Shown: in pieces, positions 6,043 through 62,722 of the stretch
Position numbering within the stretch: the stretch's first letter is position 1
Layout: every line of letters begins with the position of its first letter
Origin: Carposina sasakii
Taxonomy: Eukaryota; Arthropoda; Insecta; Lepidoptera; Carposinidae
DNA: 64,000 bases
Direction: 5' to 3'
NCBI GenBank assembly: GCA_014607495.2
Contig: CP053163.1
Coordinates: 2,832,716-2,896,715 of the forward strand
Position numbers and translations under genes: made by a program
The notes under the pieces: model-generated
What the model was told of the DNA's origin: nothing
Seen by the model: only the letters and a program-made list of their open reading frames with translations
Databases searched by the model: none

Positions 6043-7204
6043 CTAAACAAATCACAAGATAGTCTCTACAAATTTTATATTTAATAATTCATCGGTATAA
6101 AAATGTGTATAATTTAGCCTGCTAATACAAATTTTATCAATAAATCAAAAGAGCTTAATTGAATTTATCTTTTCAATCTTACAACTTAATACAAATGGAA
6201 ATATTGTATGCCGTTTTATTATGCAGGTCTTAGATCATACCGGATATCTGTTAGAAAAACGAGACATTTATTAATTTCGATCAGGTTGTTTGCTCGTTCT
6301 CACGTTACTATGTACAAACAATTAACATAAGTAACGCCTATGATCAACTCAACACATCAATCAAACTGAATCGTGCTTATTACATATCATCAAAATTATA
6401 TCTCACGTTTCCGTCATTTCGATCCAAACACTGCGACTTCCGTCATTGATTGCAAGCGACCTCACCGGTTATTTAGATGTCACGAACGATTCTCGACTTA
6501 GAATCACGATCGAAAAGGTCAGGGTCGATACTTAATAGCATTGAATGCTCGGTACTGTCCACATGTCATGGGTGCTGATCACTTTGGATTTGAACTTGGA
6601 AGCACCATAGATGAGATGTCTATTCGGAAATCAAATGCCTTATGTCGATGCTCATGTATGGGCAACTTTTTAGGCTGTGTCTGGCCAAATGAGATGCGAA
6701 GACGAATTTAATCTGACACACTGACAGACCGACAGACCTTTTGTGATGGACGCACCAAGTGATCATTAATCAATGTTTTTTGTCACCTTGTCGTGCTAAC
6801 ATGACGAAATTATGTTCTTTGTGCTCCTATTGTGGGGTGGGTGGGAGCCTCGCAGCTAGTCATCGCAATTCCTAATTAGCTTTTAAATTGGATGGCCAGA
6901 CAAAAAATATCAAACGTCCCCGAACCTTCCGTTATTATAATATTCTAAGAAAAGTTTCGAATCTTCCATGATTGGTTTGACAAATTACGCAAAATGGACA
7001 CTCAATTTACTTGACCATTAGCGTCTAACATCTAATCATAAAAAGTTCAATCTGGAGATCTGTATAAAAAGAAATAGTAAATTGTCTAGTGCTACGCATT
7101 TGACGTAGAAGTATAGTAAGATGTCGAGGTATGCATGACACATTGTGCGAATCTTTGAATTCTGCATGTTTTATGTTTTTATCATTAATCAAATTCAGAT
7201 TCAT

Positions 7205-7391
7205 ATCTTCTATGCTGCTCTGGGAGTGAAAAAAATCGTATAATACTGCAGCTGCTTCTCTTCCCGGGCATACTGTACAAGTCAGTAGAGGGACAAGAGG
7301 GTCTTGGTGTTTTGTAGGCGATGGGCTAACCACCTGTCACTACTAACCGAACTTGTACATCTCAACTATATAATACCCTCAAATTGGTCAG
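7205..7391 (+). repeat. Dispersed repeat, uninterrupted copy
   Basis: CTGCTTCTCTTCCCGGGCAT, GGGACAAGAGGGTCTTGGTG and ACCACCTGTCACTACTAACC recur reversed at 35804-35960. This copy continues through GAACTTGTACATCTCAACTA to CCCTCAAATTGGTCAG without the ribozyme element, so it is a paralogous empty site. Origin unknown; open frames across it are not convincing. Confidence 0.7.
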
Positions 7392-7559
7392 CTTTCTTCT
7401 ATCGGCCCTTGGTGCTCTGCCTACCCCGTAAGGGATAAAGGCGTCATTATATGTATCAAATTCAGATCCAAGGTATCTACAAAAAAAGTCATCTCTTTTT
7501 CTAAAGCTACAAACAACATTATTTGAATAAAATTATTAATAAAGAAATGGAAAAATTCC

Positions 7560-7631
7560 TCACCCGAGTGGGAATCGAACCCACGACCTCTGCATACCAT
7601 GCTAGCGCTCTAACCACTGAGCTACCGGGTC
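7560..7631 (-). tRNA. tRNA-Thr-like sequence (GGT), probable pseudogene or SINE head
   Basis: The minus strand folds as a near-cloverleaf of 72 nt. D arm GCTC/GAGC and T arm GTGGG-TTCGATT-CCCAC are perfect, and boxes A and B are intact. The acceptor pairs at six of seven positions with one G-G mismatch. The anticodon arm needs a bulged base; the loop ATGGTAT would give anticodon GGT (Thr). A T-rich stretch follows (GAGGAATTTTTCC). The weak anticodon stem argues against a functional tRNA. Confidence 0.45.
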
Positions 7632-7890
7632 GATTTACCGTCTCTTTTCTAAATTACATATTGGCAACGTTATTTTTCATCCCGATAGCTATACACTAGC
7701 CATTTGAATAGAAAAAGCTTTAAGATCTCTTCTGCTTATTTATTCCTAGCTCCTTATTCTCTCAGGTCAAAATATTACTTAAGTTTCATAGTTATTAAAA
7801 CGCTTGACAGACTATGTACGACTCCCTCTAGGTATATACCATCAAATATTGAATTGTATCAGGCGTCACTATTCGGAAGTTCAAATCTCT

Positions 7891-8213
7891 ATTGAGGGAT
7901 CGCCCACCACCGGGCCCTATACCCTCCGCTGACCCTCGGATCTGCCTACTCATGATCACGAACACAAGACACTACAGTCGCAACGAGAAGCCAGATCCAA
8001 GCACCTAGCATGCAACCATAAATACATAGCTGCTAATCCGAAAACCGAAAAAAAATTGGTTTTCGGATTAGCAGCTATGTATTTATGGTTGCATGCTAGG
8101 TGCTTGGATCTGGCTTCTCGTTGCGACTGTAGTGTCTTGTGTTCGTGATCATGAGTAGGCAGATCCGAGGGTCAGCGGAGGGTATAGGGCCCGGTGGTGG
8201 GCGATCTCTCAAT
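7891..8213. repeat. Near-perfect 323-bp palindrome (156-bp arms, 11-nt spacer)
   Basis: The left arm 7891-8046 and right arm 8058-8213 are inverted copies with a single mismatch seen, near the outer ends. The spacer is GAAAAAAAATT. Transcription from either side would give a very long RNA hairpin. A single-arm relative lies at 19986-20138 (about 90% identity by eye), and a more diverged one in the opposite orientation at 40843-40970. The arms carry in-frame stops relative to the open frame of the 19.9-kb copy. Alternatives are a recent inverted duplication, a transposon-internal hairpin or a foldback assembly artefact. Confidence 0.95.
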
Positions 8214-8251
8214 ATAGATATACCATCAATATTGGGCTCTTAATACGAGTA

Positions 8252-19900: not shown

Positions 19901-20182
19901 ATGCGCCGTATAAAGCCGCTGCGTGACGGCAATGATCCTAGTAAACCAAATCTAGCAGAAACATATGTCGATTACAATTTTAATTGGTTTTCGGATGAGC
20001 AGCTATGTATTTATGGTTGCATGCTAGGTGCTTGGATCTGGCTTCTCCTTACGGTAGTGTTTTGTGTTCGTGACCATGAGTCGGCAGATCCGAGGGTCAG
20101 CGGAGGGTGTAGGGTCCGGTGGTGGGCGACCCCTCAATTAAAATCTAGTAGAGTTATTTTTTGTCACATTTATCAAAGATAA
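19901..20182 (+). CDS. Open frame containing a single copy of the palindrome arm; possible exon
   Basis: A 93-codon frame beginning with ATG. Residues 1-28 are charged. The repeat homology then begins (19986) and includes a strongly hydrophobic stretch (LCIYGCMLGAWIWLLLTVVF) that could cross a membrane, followed by a charged tail. Compared with the palindrome arm, this copy differs by a 3-bp deletion and lacks its two stop codons, which is weakly consistent with coding. Upstream sequence in another frame reads on (FKSDLKGTLACAV just before 19901), so the start may be wrong or the gene frameshifted. I do not recognise the protein. It may equally be a repeat that happens to be open. Confidence 0.3.
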   Translation: MRRIKPLRDGNDPSKPNLAETYVDYNFNWFSDEQLCIYGCMLGAWIWLLLTVVFCVRDHESADPRVSGGCRVRWWATPQLKSSRVIFCHIYQR

Positions 20183-35500: not shown

Positions 35501-35552
35501 AAAAAATTACTTCTGACCAATTTTGAGGGTTAGGTTAGGTGAGTTGAGATAT

Positions 35553-35637
35553 CCCTCCCGATGGTTGCCCGCCTTGTCGGGCCGGGAGGGCTTAGTAACC
35601 GTGGACTGGTCACCCACGGTGAATCTAAGAGGCAACC
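35553..35637 (+). ncRNA. Candidate HDV-like self-cleaving ribozyme
   Basis: Pairings read from the sequence. P1: CCCTCCCG (35553-35560) with CGGGAGGG (35583-35590). P2: GGTTGC (35563-35568) with GCAACC (35632-35637). P3: CCG (35569-35571) with CGG (35578-35580), extendable. P4: ACCGTGG (35598-35604) with CCACGGT (35614-35620). The joining strand GAATCTAAGAG (35621-35631) holds a candidate catalytic C at 35625. The order P1-P2-P3-P3'-P1'-P4-P4'-J4/2-P2' is that of HDV-like ribozymes known at the 5' ends of R2 and other non-LTR retrotransposons. The first paired base is exactly the first base after the target duplication, where such ribozymes cut. One or two bases between P3 and P1 are unpaired in this model. 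Activity is inferred. Confidence 0.72.
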
Positions 35638-35792
35638 AGGGCCGGCCTGTTTGGGCCGCCGGCTGGCCCGAGGAGGGCGCTCCCAGCGGGCTGAACAAGT
35701 CCGCTGCGGACGCGCGTGGAGGTGGGACCGCAGAAGAAGAGGGGTGCCGGTATTACGGTGCGCCGTTCTCCCCATCTTCTGCGGCCGTGGTT
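35553..35792 (+). mobile_element. 240-bp GC-rich short retroelement headed by an HDV-like ribozyme
   Basis: The insertion is flanked by the 11-bp direct repeat AGTTGAGATAT (35542-35552 and 35793-35803), as expected for target-primed reverse transcription. It is strongly GC-rich in AT-rich surroundings. The first 85 nt fit a nested double-pseudoknot ribozyme (separate entry). The 3' end forms a hairpin CCGCAGAAGA...TCTTCTGCGG. There is no long poly-A and no convincing ORF; several overlapping GC-driven frames are open, which is not evidence of coding. A related dispersed repeat at 7205-7391 shows the uninterrupted site. Likely a short internally deleted non-LTR element or a SINE with a ribozyme head. 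The parent LINE is unknown. Confidence 0.8.
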
Positions 35793-35803
35793 AGTTGAGA
35801 TAT

Positions 35804-58234: not shown

Positions 58235-58303
58235 TGTTGTGGGTATTGATAAATAAACCAGTTGTTGTCTGACAGCCGAACGTGTTTCATTAAAAACAGT
58301 ACA
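58235..58303 (+). repeat. 5' LTR of mag-like element
   Basis: A 69-bp LTR with TGT...ACA ends. It contains AATAAA inside GATAAATAAACC, a possible polyadenylation signal. There is little room for a conventional promoter, so start-site signals may lie in the LTR end or the leader. Confidence 0.93.
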
Positions 58304-58316: not shown

Positions 58317-58443
58317 AATTTATTTATAGGAGAATCAAGTGATTATATGGTTAAAATAGTTATAATCACTGTATTTTATGCAAGATAATCATAAAAGTGT
58401 TAGTTGAGTGTTATATCAAGTGCAATCGCGAGTATTTGTAAAA

Positions 58444-61400
58444 ATGGAACACGCGCGCCCACCCGCAGAATTAAATATGGAAGGCGGTCCCGTTAGTCGC
58501 GCGGACGCCTGGAAACGGTGGAAACAACAATTCATGCTATTCCTGAAAGCATCAGGTGTAGCAACGGAATCAGCGAGCGTCCAAGCCAGCCTGCTAGTCA
58601 ACCTAATAGGGTCAGAAGGTTTCGATGTCTACCAAACATTCACTTTTATAAAAGAGGCAGATCGAGATAATGTAAATGTAATTTTACAAAAGTTTGACAG
58701 TTACTTTGATTCGAAAGTGAATATTACGTTACTGAGGTACAAGTTCTTCACACGAAACCAAGAAGACGGAGAAACTATACAGCAGTACGTAACGGCATTA
58801 CGACTACTTAGTAAAAATTGCAACTTTGCTAGTTTGGAAGATGACCTTATCAAGGATCGCATAGTGTGCGGTGTGCGCAGCGTAACAATAAGGGATCGTT
58901 TGCTGAGATGCGACGACCTTGACCTCGACAAGGCTATGAAGGTGTGCCAAGCGGAGGAGGTGTCGCGAGAAAGCGGGCAGCAATTTGACGGTGCGGGTAC
59001 GAGTGCGGCGCATGTTGATAGTGTTAACCAACATGGTCGGCTCGGGCGCGGCAGCGGCCGCCGTGGCCGCGGTGCGCTGGCGAGCGTCTGGCAGCGGCAG
59101 CCGGGCGGCGGAGGCTCGGGGAGGAGCGCGGGCGGCTGGCAGCGCAGCGCGCGCCCGCCGTGCACCGGCTGTGGCAGCGGGGGCGCGGCGCGCTGCGCGA
59201 GCGGCCAGTGCCCCGCTATGCATGTGACATGTTTTATTTGCGGTAAACAAGGTCATTTCGCTCGGGTATGTACATCAAAATCTTATAATAACACAGGAAA
59301 AGTGAAACGTGTGTATGATATTGATATAGAAGGAGGTGATGACAGTGCGGATTCGACTTCAGAGTACACCGAGTCATTTTATATTTCGGTCATAAAGGAA
59401 CATAACAAATGTGATGAGTGGTGTGAATCGTTACAATGTGGCAATGATGTGGAAAATTTTAAGCTAGATACAGGCGCAGATATTAATGTATTATCATATG
59501 AGCGATTTTTGCATTTAGGACTTGATCGTGATGTAATAAAAAATCATAACATTCGATTGGAATCCTATAGCGGCGATATAATACCTATAAAGGGCATTTG
59601 CTTTATACAATGTACTTATAAAAATATAGTATATAACCTTAAATTTGCCATTGCTGATATACCGTGTCAAAGTGTGCTGGGACGGAAGTCGTGTCAGGAT
59701 ATCGGTTTAGTTAAACGGGTACATTCTATAAACTTATCTGAATACGATGACTTGTTTTCCGGTCTAGGATGTCTTCCAGGTAAATATCACATTGTGATAG
59801 ATAAAACTGTACAGCCAGTTATATGTGCATCGCGAAAAATACCCTTTGGACTACGGGATAGGTTAGCAGAGGAGCTCAAAAAGATGGAAACTATGGGAGT
59901 TATACGTAAGGTATCACATCCAACACAGTGGGTACACCCGCTAGTCCTGGCGGCCAAAAAGAATAACGGCATTCGCATATGCCTCGACCCGCGCGAGCTG
60001 AACCGCGCGGTGCAGCGCGCGCACTTCCAGCTGCCGACGCTCGCGGAGCTGGCGGCGCGGCTGCACGGCGCGACATATTTTTCGGTGTTAGATGCTAACT
60101 CAGGATTTTGGGCAGTGATGCTGGACGAGCCCAGTGCTGATCTTTGTACATTTGCTACGCCTTTTGGACGATATCAATTTTTACGCCTTCCGTTCGGTAT
60201 TAATTGTGCGTCCGAAGTTTTCCATGGCAAGATGCGTCAACTGCTGGAAGACCTGGAGGGCACAGATAGTTTCGTCGACGACATAATCGTATGGGGTCGC
60301 ACAAAGCGGGAACACGATACGAGATTAGAGGCACTACTTAAACGTGGGCGCGAAATTAATATTAAATTTAATAAGGAGAAATGTAAAATAGGCGTGGAAG
60401 AAGTTACGTATTTGGGCCATGTTTTTGACAAAAGAGGGATGAGGGCGGACTATAATAAAATTAAAGCGATAAAGGAGATACCAACACCGGAAAACAGGAA
60501 AGATTTAGAGAGATTCTTAGGAGCCGTAAATTATTTATCAAAGTTTATTCCAAATTATTCCGAGGAGGCGATTCCACTAAACAATTTATTAAAGAAAGAA
60601 AATAGCTGGCGTTGGGAAGACAGCGAAAAAGCATCTTTCGAACGGCTGAAGGAGTGCGTATGTAGCGCGCCGGTGCTGGCGCTGTACGACGTGGCGGCGC
60701 CCGCCACGCTGTCGGTGGACGCGTCGCGCGACGCGCTGGGCGCCGTGCTGCTGCAGGCAGGCCGCCCCGTGGAGTACGCGTCGCGCACTCTCACAGACAC
60801 ACAGCGCCGGTACGCTCAGGTGGAAAAAGAAATGTTAGCGATAGTATTTGCTTGCGAAAGATTCCATCAGTACATATTCGGGAAAGAAAAGGTAATGGTT
60901 GAATCGGACCATAAACCCTTAGAGAGCATTTTTAAAAAACCATTTATGTCTGTCCCGGCACGCTTACAACGTATGATGTTAAGAATACAGGGTTACGACT
61001 TATGCGTGTCATATAAACCCGGTAAATATATGTATCTACCTGACACTCTGTCGCGCGCACCGTTGCCCGAGTTATATAGCGAAGAAGTGCAAAAAAGTGT
61101 TTTGCATCAGGTACAACTAGTAGTAAATAACTTGCCCATGTCAAATAAAAAACTTACACTAATTAAAAATAAAACCAAAAAAGATAAAACATTTAATAAA
61201 CTTTTGGAGTACATTAAATATGGTTGGCCTAATCATAAATATAATGTAGAGGAAAACGTAAAATCATATTGGTCTATGAAAGATGAATTATATTCTATCG
61301 ATGAAGTTATATTTAAAAATGAAGTTATACTCATACCAGTAACACTCAGAGAAGAAATGTTGCGTATTGTTCACGAAGGTCACCAAGGCATTGACCGATG

Positions 61401-62541
61401 CAAGCGGCGCGCGCGGCAAGTGTTGTATTGGCCGAATATGTCACGTGACATCGAGAAATTTGTTAAAAGATGTACAATATGTAGGGAACGCTCAAATATA
61501 CCTGCACGGGAACCTATGATTCCGGTAGAAATTCCGTCACTACCATGGAATAGGGTTGGTTCGGATTTATTTGAATACAGAAGAAAATACTTCCTTCTTA
61601 TCGTGGATTATTACTCTAACTATGTCGAAGTTAGCAATTTATGCAACATTACATCTAATTCTGTCATAAAAGCAATGAAGGAAATATTTTCTCGCCATGG
61701 AATACCGGTGACCCTAATTAGCGATAACGGGCCATGTTATAGTAGTCGAGAGTTCCGAAAGTTTATAGAGGAGTGGGGAGTGGAACACGTGACGTCATCA
61801 CCTAACTATCCTCAGGCTAATGGGAAAAGCGAACGAGCGGTGCAAACTATAAAAAATTTGCTAGTAAAATCTATTATAAGTAATACCGATTTTCAACTAG
61901 CTTTATTAAACTACCGGAACACACCGAGAGATGGCTTGAGCTCGCCCGCACAACTGTTGATGAGTCGTAGATTACGTTGTAAACTCCCTGTCAGTACACA
62001 AATGTTACTGCCAAAACCTATCGACCCGTCTGAATTTACAACAATGTTAGAAAAACAGAAAGTGTCAAAACATCATTATGATAAACGAACGAAACCATTG
62101 CCTAAACTAAATGCGGGTGACAATATTATATGCATAAATGGCAAAACTCGAACCAAAGGAATTGTAATAAGTAATGCTGACACTCCACGTTCTTACATTG
62201 TTCAAAATAAAGCGGGAACTAGGTACAAACGCAATAGACGTCACTTAATTAAGTATAAAACAAAGCAATACCATAATGATGTTGAGGTAAACCAATTCAA
62301 GTACGAGGCGGATAACACTGTCAATAAATCTAAATGTCAACAAGAATCTGATGACAGTGATAGCACCGTAAGTGGTGACGCCAGTATAGGAGAGGCTGCC
62401 CACAGAGAAGCTGGGGACGAGGCCATCGGGGACACGGGTAACACCAGTAATGACACTCGTACTAAAGTTGGGGATTCTCCCCTTTTCCAAGGACCCATGA
62501 CTCGTTCTCGAGCAAAGAAATTTGTAATGGACATAGACTAG
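58444..62541 (+). CDS. Gag-Pol polyprotein of a mag-lineage Ty3/gypsy retrotransposon
   Basis: One uninterrupted frame of 1,365 codons. The start is the ATG at 58444 (context aaaATGG); the frame is open upstream, but only non-ATG codons precede it. Order seen: Gag-like N-terminus; Gly/Arg-rich linker (about residues 195-238); cysteine cluster C240-X2-C243-X7-C251-X4-C256; CCHC knuckle C263-X2-C-X4-H271-X4-C276; aspartic protease DTGAD at D342; reverse transcriptase with D550 and FVDD (D612, D613); RNase H D759, E796, D822; integrase zinc site H977-X2-H980-X29-C1010-X2-C1013; integrase catalytic D1041, D1094-X35-E1130; basic C-terminal tail. No chromodomain and no env. Gag and Pol share one frame, so no frameshift is needed. 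All key catalytic residues are present, so the product could be active. The codon-usage patches are described under findings. Assignment to the mag lineage rests on domain order and the tiny LTRs, and is my inference. Confidence 0.95.
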   Translation: MEHARPPAELNMEGGPVSRADAWKRWKQQFMLFLKASGVATESASVQASLLVNLIGSEGFDVYQTFTFIKEADRDNVNVILQKFDSYFDSKVNITLLRYKFFTRNQEDGETIQQYVTALRLLSKNCNFASLEDDLIKDRIVCGVRSVTIRDRLLRCDDLDLDKAMKVCQAEEVSRESGQQFDGAGTSAAHVDSVNQHGRLGRGSGRRGRGALASVWQRQPGGGGSGRSAGGWQRSARPPCTGCGSGGAARCASGQCPAMHVTCFICGKQGHFARVCTSKSYNNTGKVKRVYDIDIEGGDDSADSTSEYTESFYISVIKEHNKCDEWCESLQCGNDVENFKLDTGADINVLSYERFLHLGLDRDVIKNHNIRLESYSGDIIPIKGICFIQCTYKNIVYNLKFAIADIPCQSVLGRKSCQDIGLVKRVHSINLSEYDDLFSGLGCLPGKYHIVIDKTVQPVICASRKIPFGLRDRLAEELKKMETMGVIRKVSHPTQWVHPLVLAAKKNNGIRICLDPRELNRAVQRAHFQLPTLAELAARLHGATYFSVLDANSGFWAVMLDEPSADLCTFATPFGRYQFLRLPFGINCASEVFHGKMRQLLEDLEGTDSFVDDIIVWGRTKREHDTRLEALLKRGREINIKFNKEKCKIGVEEVTYLGHVFDKRGMRADYNKIKAIKEIPTPENRKDLERFLGAVNYLSKFIPNYSEEAIPLNNLLKKENSWRWEDSEKASFERLKECVCSAPVLALYDVAAPATLSVDASRDALGAVLLQAGRPVEYASRTLTDTQRRYAQVEKEMLAIVFACERFHQYIFGKEKVMVESDHKPLESIFKKPFMSVPARLQRMMLRIQGYDLCVSYKPGKYMYLPDTLSRAPLPELYSEEVQKSVLHQVQLVVNNLPMSNKKLTLIKNKTKKDKTFNKLLEYIKYGWPNHKYNVEENVKSYWSMKDELYSIDEVIFKNEVILIPVTLREEMLRIVHEGHQGIDRCKRRARQVLYWPNMSRDIEKFVKRCTICRERSNIPAREPMIPVEIPSLPWNRVGSDLFEYRRKYFLLIVDYYSNYVEVSNLCNITSNSVIKAMKEIFSRHGIPVTLISDNGPCYSSREFRKFIEEWGVEHVTSSPNYPQANGKSERAVQTIKNLLVKSIISNTDFQLALLNYRNTPRDGLSSPAQLLMSRRLRCKLPVSTQMLLPKPIDPSEFTTMLEKQKVSKHHYDKRTKPLPKLNAGDNIICINGKTRTKGIVISNADTPRSYIVQNKAGTRYKRNRRHLIKYKTKQYHNDVEVNQFKYEADNTVNKSKCQQESDDSDSTVSGDASIGEAAHREAGDEAIGDTGNTSNDTRTKVGDSPLFQGPMTRSRAKKFVMDID

Positions 62542-62653: not shown

Positions 62654-62722
62654 TGTTGTGGGTATTGATAAATAAACCAGTTGTTGTCTGACAGCCGAAC
62701 GTGTTTCATTAAAAACAGTACA
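62654..62722 (+). repeat. 3' LTR of mag-like element
   Basis: Identical by eye to 58235-58303. It is followed directly by the second ACCAT target copy. Confidence 0.93.

Follow-up and report, generated by a model that had tools for sequence, protein, structure and literature searches.

A short element whose first bases can be folded like a self-cleaving RNA raises the question of whether its transcript could set its own 5′ end, and by what machinery such an RNA would then be copied. A candidate lies in the window, the 64,000-nucleotide stretch of Carposina sasakii DNA analysed here, to which all positions refer. The initial annotation placed a hepatitis delta virus (HDV)-like ribozyme fold at the exact 5′ boundary of a 240-bp non-coding element. 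HDV-like ribozymes have been described on non-autonomous elements of trypanosomatids (PMC4035085) and of Drosophila rDNA (PMC3414825).

Insertion site of the element

An exact 11-bp duplication, AGTTGAGATAT, encloses the 240 bp (Table 1), and the left flank contains GGGTTAGGTTAGGTG. The P1 helix of the predicted fold starts at the first base after the left duplication, as had been claimed. The left duplication is possibly part of a longer original starting with AGGTG. The right flank of the element is a repeat that recurs on the minus strand at 7368-7203, with 154 of 171 bases identical, and this paralog has a single near-identical target and is missing the 240 bp. Since the paralogous site carries the target once, without the 240 bp, the sequence at 35553 is an insertion.

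Other structures were noticed in the window. A tRNA-Thr (GGT) gene lies at 7560-7631 (minus strand), separated by about 160 bp from the paralog with the empty site. A near-perfect palindrome of 335 bp (7885-8219) is 96% identical to its own reverse complement and has a relative at 19975-20138. On the plus strand, 58408-62541 is a long open frame with the look, by eye, of a Gypsy-like LTR retrotransposon, bracketed by perfect 69-bp direct repeats (58235-58303 and 62654-62722).

Table 1 Features of the inserted element and its flanks in the window.
Feature	Position	Strand	Basis or remark
Target-site duplication, left copy (AGTTGAGATAT)	35542..35552	+	sequence reading and empty-site paralog (minus strand)
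Predicted HDV-like ribozyme	35553..35637	+	descriptor scans and alignment of 37 copies; putative cleavage at 35552/35553
P1, 5′ strand CCCTCCC	35553..35559	+	partner GGGAGGG, 35584-35590
P2, 5′ strand GGTTGCC	35563..35569	+	partner GGCAACC, 35631-35637; crosses P1
P3, 5′ strand GCC	35571..35573	+	partner 35581-35583
L3, UUGUCGG	35574..35580	+	U at loop position 1, G at position 6
P1, 3′ strand GGGAGGG	35584..35590	+	partner 35553-35559
P4, 5′ strand CCGTGG	35599..35604	+	partner 35614-35619
P4, 3′ strand	35614..35619	+	partner 35599-35604
J4/2, CTAA with candidate catalytic C35625	35625..35628	+	alignment of copies
P2, 3′ strand GGCAACC	35631..35637	+	partner 35563-35569
GC-rich non-coding body, cut at about consensus 238	35638..35790	+	includes first hairpin repeat, about 35721-35790
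Target-site duplication, right copy	35793..35803	+	sequence reading
Empty-site paralog of the host repeat	7203..7403	-	alignment with right flank

A dispersed repeat family with a poly(A) tail

A search of the genome (399 Mb, 31 contigs) with the element gave 1093 candidates; 40 of these were scored, and all 40 match. Most of the copies at the 39 other places fetched start at the same C-rich base, and the 23 copies that can be traced to a common tail run for about 630-780 bp before poly(A). The 240-bp window element is a 3′-shortened member of this dispersed, poly(A)-tailed family of about 0.8 kb, so that the 240-bp non-coding unit originally described is not a unit of its own. The consensus was built from 23 of the 40 copies; 9 named as broken or odd and 8 without the tail motif were excluded. 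Its layout is a ribozyme-like head, a GC-rich body, three hairpin repeats and a tail with GAGTCCCACATAACC and GGTATGCGTAATGCATTTTC ahead of the poly(A), and it has no reading frame open throughout. The hairpin repeats are related to one another (about 55-80 bp, 80-82% alike; consensus 169-246, 237-299 and 332-409).

Some copies of the family are broken or end early, and the window copy departs from it at about consensus 238. Its lost 3′ part may reflect either a later deletion reaching the right target duplication or the insertion of a 3′-shortened RNA. Such RNAs can insert, since another copy (L018) breaks off early and still has a short poly(A) tail and a 15-bp duplication.

A tRNA- or 5S-derived SINE was ruled out: a tRNA scan found none in five of five copies, and an Rfam search of one intact copy up to E 1 returned no tRNA, 5S or 7SL family. 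Exact ribozyme patterns had no match in the viral contigs and genome contigs searched, and the exact tail pattern had none in the viral contigs.

Predicted HDV-like fold of the 5′ end

P1, the crossing P2, P4 and a CTAAG containing C35625 are all present in the letters, as the initial annotation had it. P2, drawn there as GGTTGC with GCAACC, is better drawn with 7 bp, or 8 with T35562-A35638. In the family consensus, the helices fall at 1-7/32-38 (P1), 11-17/79-85 (P2), 19-21/29-31 (P3) and 47-52/62-67 (P4), and the candidate catalytic residue is C73 within the CTAA of J4/2.

The fold was followed through an alignment of 37 of the 40 copies, L041, L044 and L045 being excluded for a rearranged 5′ part. 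Over these copies, 95.0% of all pairing cells and 96.9% of the P2 cells are paired. The U and G of L3 (consensus U22 and G27) are invariant (37/37), and we take them to occupy the places of U20 and G25 in the HDV ribozyme. Pairing of a conserved L3 G with the L3 U has been described for HDV-like ribozymes (PMC3774820). The middle pair of P3 is C-G in 34 of the 37 and a C-C mismatch (35572/35582) in the window copy and one other. The catalytic C of HDV-like ribozymes lies in J4/2 and is followed by NRA; the corresponding motif among the aligned copies, the window copy included, reads CTAA in 35, CTAG in one and TTAA in one. P1.1, drawn by hand, is weak, with one Watson-Crick pair (G-C, consensus 24-39) and U opposite U (23-40). 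The first ribozyme base is G in HDV and C in this family. A trypanosomatid ribozyme, too, has been described as starting with C1, and it is inactive because that C1 is mispaired (PMC4035085).

Descriptor scans and shuffle controls

A loose HDV descriptor accepted only 35553/35554 on the plus strand of the window and one AT-rich place, 49992, on the minus strand. Dinucleotide shuffles gave 37 starts in 60 sequences of 64 kb, counting both strands (about 0.6 per 64 kb), so one loose HDV fold in a window of this size is not rare. Its position is more telling: among 4000 shuffles of the 240 bases, read on the given strand, the loose fold occurred in four and began at base 1 in none. Over the family, the loose descriptor accepted 15 of 40 copies, including that of the window, and 25 failed.

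A strict descriptor, whose rules were drawn up after the family had been seen and whose L3 U/G rule was taken from the literature on HDV-like ribozymes (PMC3774820), accepts the family consensus at base 1 and none of 7192 shuffles of it (given strand). It likewise had no hit on either strand of 58 shuffled 64-kb sequences. Among 69 fetched loci it accepts nine, which are six distinct places, and 60 fail. The window copy is rejected owing to its P3 mismatch and meets the loose rules only.

Covariation and competing folds

Compensatory changes had been proposed as a check. Covariation in the 37 aligned copies is no greater than in shuffles, as expected of young copies that drift after insertion, and it lends the fold no support either. 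In a genome-wide pattern search with 20 matches, the middle pair of P1 is C/G in 18, G/G in one and T/A in the window copy alone; this single double change (T35556/A35587 in place of C/G) is suggestive only.

Another proposed check, scoring with an HDV covariance model, went against the fold. Rfam scans up to E 10 matched no HDV family in the stretch at 35553 or in an intact copy, for which the best was a minus-strand match to a flavivirus stem-loop that, at 20.8 bits, fell short of the gathering score (38.3). Covariance models of the Rfam type do not score a crossing helix. An Rfam HDV match is therefore a library look-up rather than a defining property.

Competing pairings were also evaluated. 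The J1.1/4 strand CUUAG can pair with CUAAG of J4/2, which would bury the candidate catalytic C. For the window copy, the nested fold is at -39.6 kcal/mol, compared with -22.3 for P1+P3+P4 plus -12.7 for P2, and for the consensus the values are near equal (-38.7 versus -28.1 plus -12.7), the cost of the pseudoknot being left uncounted in both. The nested minimum-energy folds keep P1 and an extended P4 but cannot accommodate P2. The window copy is perhaps inactive. The claim that the architecture is HDV-like and begins right at the 5′ boundary is supported for the family, through its consensus, the 5′ ends of many copies and the invariant L3 U and G, and is weakened for the window copy by the broken P3 and the more stable competing fold.

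5′ ends of the copies

Forty-six of 61 distinct copies start within the first eight consensus bases, in a set that is biased by the query and in which the pairs L054/L066, L012/L030 and L016/L039 share target duplications. A duplication of at least 9 bp is absent in 24 of the 61. In the 32 copies that start within the first eight bases and have a clear duplication, the duplication ends exactly before base 1 of P1 in 15 and within one base of it in 22.

Loci were also picked by the 3′ tail, as the best 30 of 40 scored. Seventeen of these begin at consensus 1-4, nine of the 17 places being also in the first copy set, and 13 have starts scattered from 22 to 647; one of the 13 (L067) was placed at 11 in the 61-copy analysis. 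This is the pattern given by a fixed RNA 5′ end with ordinary 5′ truncation, and a fixed transcription start gives it likewise.

The 3′ tail, a candidate LINE partner and target sites

The last 80-150 bp of the family resemble R1-clade LINEs of the same genome at 69-76% identity, and the exact partner was not found. Reading the 30 tail-picked loci with 1.5 kb of flanking sequence revealed no LINE among them. Two were followed further, and the frames in these larger stretches (L078 and L079) include none that is LINE-like upstream of the tail. A pattern that excludes the element's own tail matched 47 places, and its reversed control none; by hand count, 25 of these 47 LINE-type tails are no more than 150 kb from the end of a contig.

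A tandem array of TRAS-like LINE ends, poly(A) runs and GGTTA repeats was observed near a chromosome end (L081, G000:C13:13150-20060). In it, a LINE end runs into poly(A) and then into GGTTA repeats (35 bp), after which the next element follows. The tail of our family is 76% identical to the LINE end of the array over 84 bp. A reverse transcriptase piece in the array is RVT_1 (E 2.1e-21), a PDB search with the C-terminal piece of the array LINE gave no match, and the array stretch has no HDV-like head on the coding strand.

Among the LINE-type tails, 13 were counted by hand as dispersed, and the five of them that were fetched, which are of a second sequence type, all share 68.5-70.9% identity with consensus 655-800. 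One dispersed LINE could be read to its 5′ end. It is about 6.4 kb long and lies between copies of GTTAGACTATGACA, the left copy being preceded by GTTAGGTTAG, and the family tail is 71% identical to it over 127 bp. This LINE carries endonuclease and reverse transcriptase domains. The reverse transcriptase piece is RVT_1 (E 3.5e-35), and the endonuclease piece has a single PDB match, TRAS1 ORF2p (1wdu; E 2.6e-15). The 5′ end of this dispersed LINE is unrelated to the family, and no ribozyme was found there; one descriptor match that lacks P4 lies about 115 bp inside. A genome pattern with the same P2 and P3 but a P1 other than poly-G had no match; neither it nor the two LINE loci read revealed a donor of the head. 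For a reverse transcriptase piece of the LINEs of this genome, the top match is from Parnassius mnemosyne, and many others among the 120 of 246 matches listed are lepidopteran, together with ants, bees and bacteria-labelled entries.

The insertion sites point to the same type of LINE. Of 61 copies, 36 have TAGG within the last 45 bp of the left flank and 10 have GGTTAGG, compared with 41 and 2, respectively, of 336 control pieces. Duplications start with AGG in 17 of 37. This TAGG preference is as a TRAS target would predict: the TRAS/SART endonuclease is reviewed as cutting TTAGG between T and A, with the 3′ UTR being required (PMC4700185). The family thus combines a related tail with a TTAGG-type target, the marks of mobilisation by a TRAS-like LINE, and its copying would take place in trans.

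Discussion

We consider it fairly probable that the element belongs to a SINE-like family in which a predicted HDV-like head frees the 5′ end of the RNA and a TRAS-like LINE of the R1 clade likely copies it through the tail. A read-through host transcript would supply the element RNA, and its first 86 nt would fold as an HDV-like ribozyme, self-cleave at 35552/35553 and release the 5′ end of the element. A TRAS-like R1-clade LINE would then copy the freed RNA through the related 3′ tail. The boundary is real, and the predicted HDV-like head of this SINE-like family is probably catalytic; both cleavage and the TRAS-like partnership are what we infer for the element. A more far-reaching proposal, about which we are evenly divided, is that of a promoter-less SINE in which the HDV-like ribozyme replaces a pol III head and the TRAS-like tail hijacks a telomere-targeting LINE machinery for insertion at TTAGG-like sites genome-wide.

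The same 5′ stems could instead form a structured RNA or DNA without catalysis, with P1 and the extended P4 as the real fold and the 5′ end set by the start from an internal promoter. The nested minimum-energy folds, with their P1 and extended P4 and no P2, would suit this explanation, and some non-LTR elements do carry a promoter for an exact 5′ end (PMC3774820). We nevertheless regard it as unlikely, given that P2 is kept paired across the copies and that the crossing helix, the L3 U and G and the CNRA spacing coincide at consensus base 1, a combination that none of the 7192 shuffles reproduced. That the fold is a mere chance product of GC-rich sequence appears very improbable. The frequency of loose folds in shuffled sequence, the strict rules written with the family in view and the missing support from covariation all leave room for chance, but it would have to account for the base-1 placement that is absent from 4000 shuffles, for the strict fit of the consensus and for a boundary that recurs in many copies.

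If the head is a ribozyme, its origin has to be considered. Ribozyme head, private hairpin body and LINE tail likely come together here as a chimera, because the one flanked LINE examined showed no such head at its 5′ end. The element might instead be a SIDE, that is, an internally deleted derivative of one LINE that has this ribozyme, and known SIDEs are described as built in this way (PMC3414825, PMC4035085). We hold such a derivation to be somewhat unlikely within the ribozyme reading: the flanked TRAS-like LINE begins with unrelated sequence and has its P4-less match well inside, the array is without a match on its coding strand, and the pattern with other than a poly-G P1 found no relative in the genome, two LINE loci having been read at length. 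Derivation from R2 is also thought unlikely, by comparison with published descriptions only, in which silkmoth R2 ribozymes lack P4 and have 28S sequence in P1 (PMC3774820).

The chimera that we favor has relatives in form. The R2/R1 hybrid SIDEs of Drosophila likewise join an HDV-like head to an R1-type 3′ end; the ribozymes of four species are reported to self-cleave, and the elements make 14-bp target duplications, with R1 machinery presumed to copy them (PMC3414825). They are located in 28S rDNA and have an R2-derived head (PMC3414825), whereas the present family is dispersed, with a private hairpin-repeat body and a TRAS-like poly(A) tail. The trypanosomatid SIDER/NARTc elements are similarly short non-coding retroelements with a 5′ HDV-like ribozyme, Pr77, several of which have been shown to cleave (PMC4035085). 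We liken them by description; their hosts are unrelated, and they are relatives of L1Tc/ingi (PMC4035085). The family differs from both, the nearest described, in host group, tail and dispersal.

Within Lepidoptera, the silkmoth R2 ribozyme is also HDV-like and on a non-LTR element, but it cuts 28 nt upstream of the insertion site (PMC3774820), whereas in this family P1 and P4 lie inside the element and the predicted cut is at the first element base. The heliconiine SINE Flambeau, likened by description, is reported to have 3′ similarity with R1 LINEs (PMC6685494), and the word ribozyme is absent from the main text of that report. TRAS/SART LINEs share the related tail and a T/AGG-type target, and the same genome contains a LINE whose endonuclease is TRAS1-like; TRAS/SART elements differ in being autonomous and 6-7 kb long, with no HDV-like head in the two loci examined. 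The literature matches listed included no SINE-like family of this kind from Lepidoptera, nor one linked to TRAS/SART.

If the head cleaves, the family would illustrate a way for short elements lacking their own promoter to spread through a genome, and its many natural copies would allow activity to be compared with insertion success. It would also imply that a parasite landing far from telomeres exploits the machinery of a telomere-type LINE in trans.
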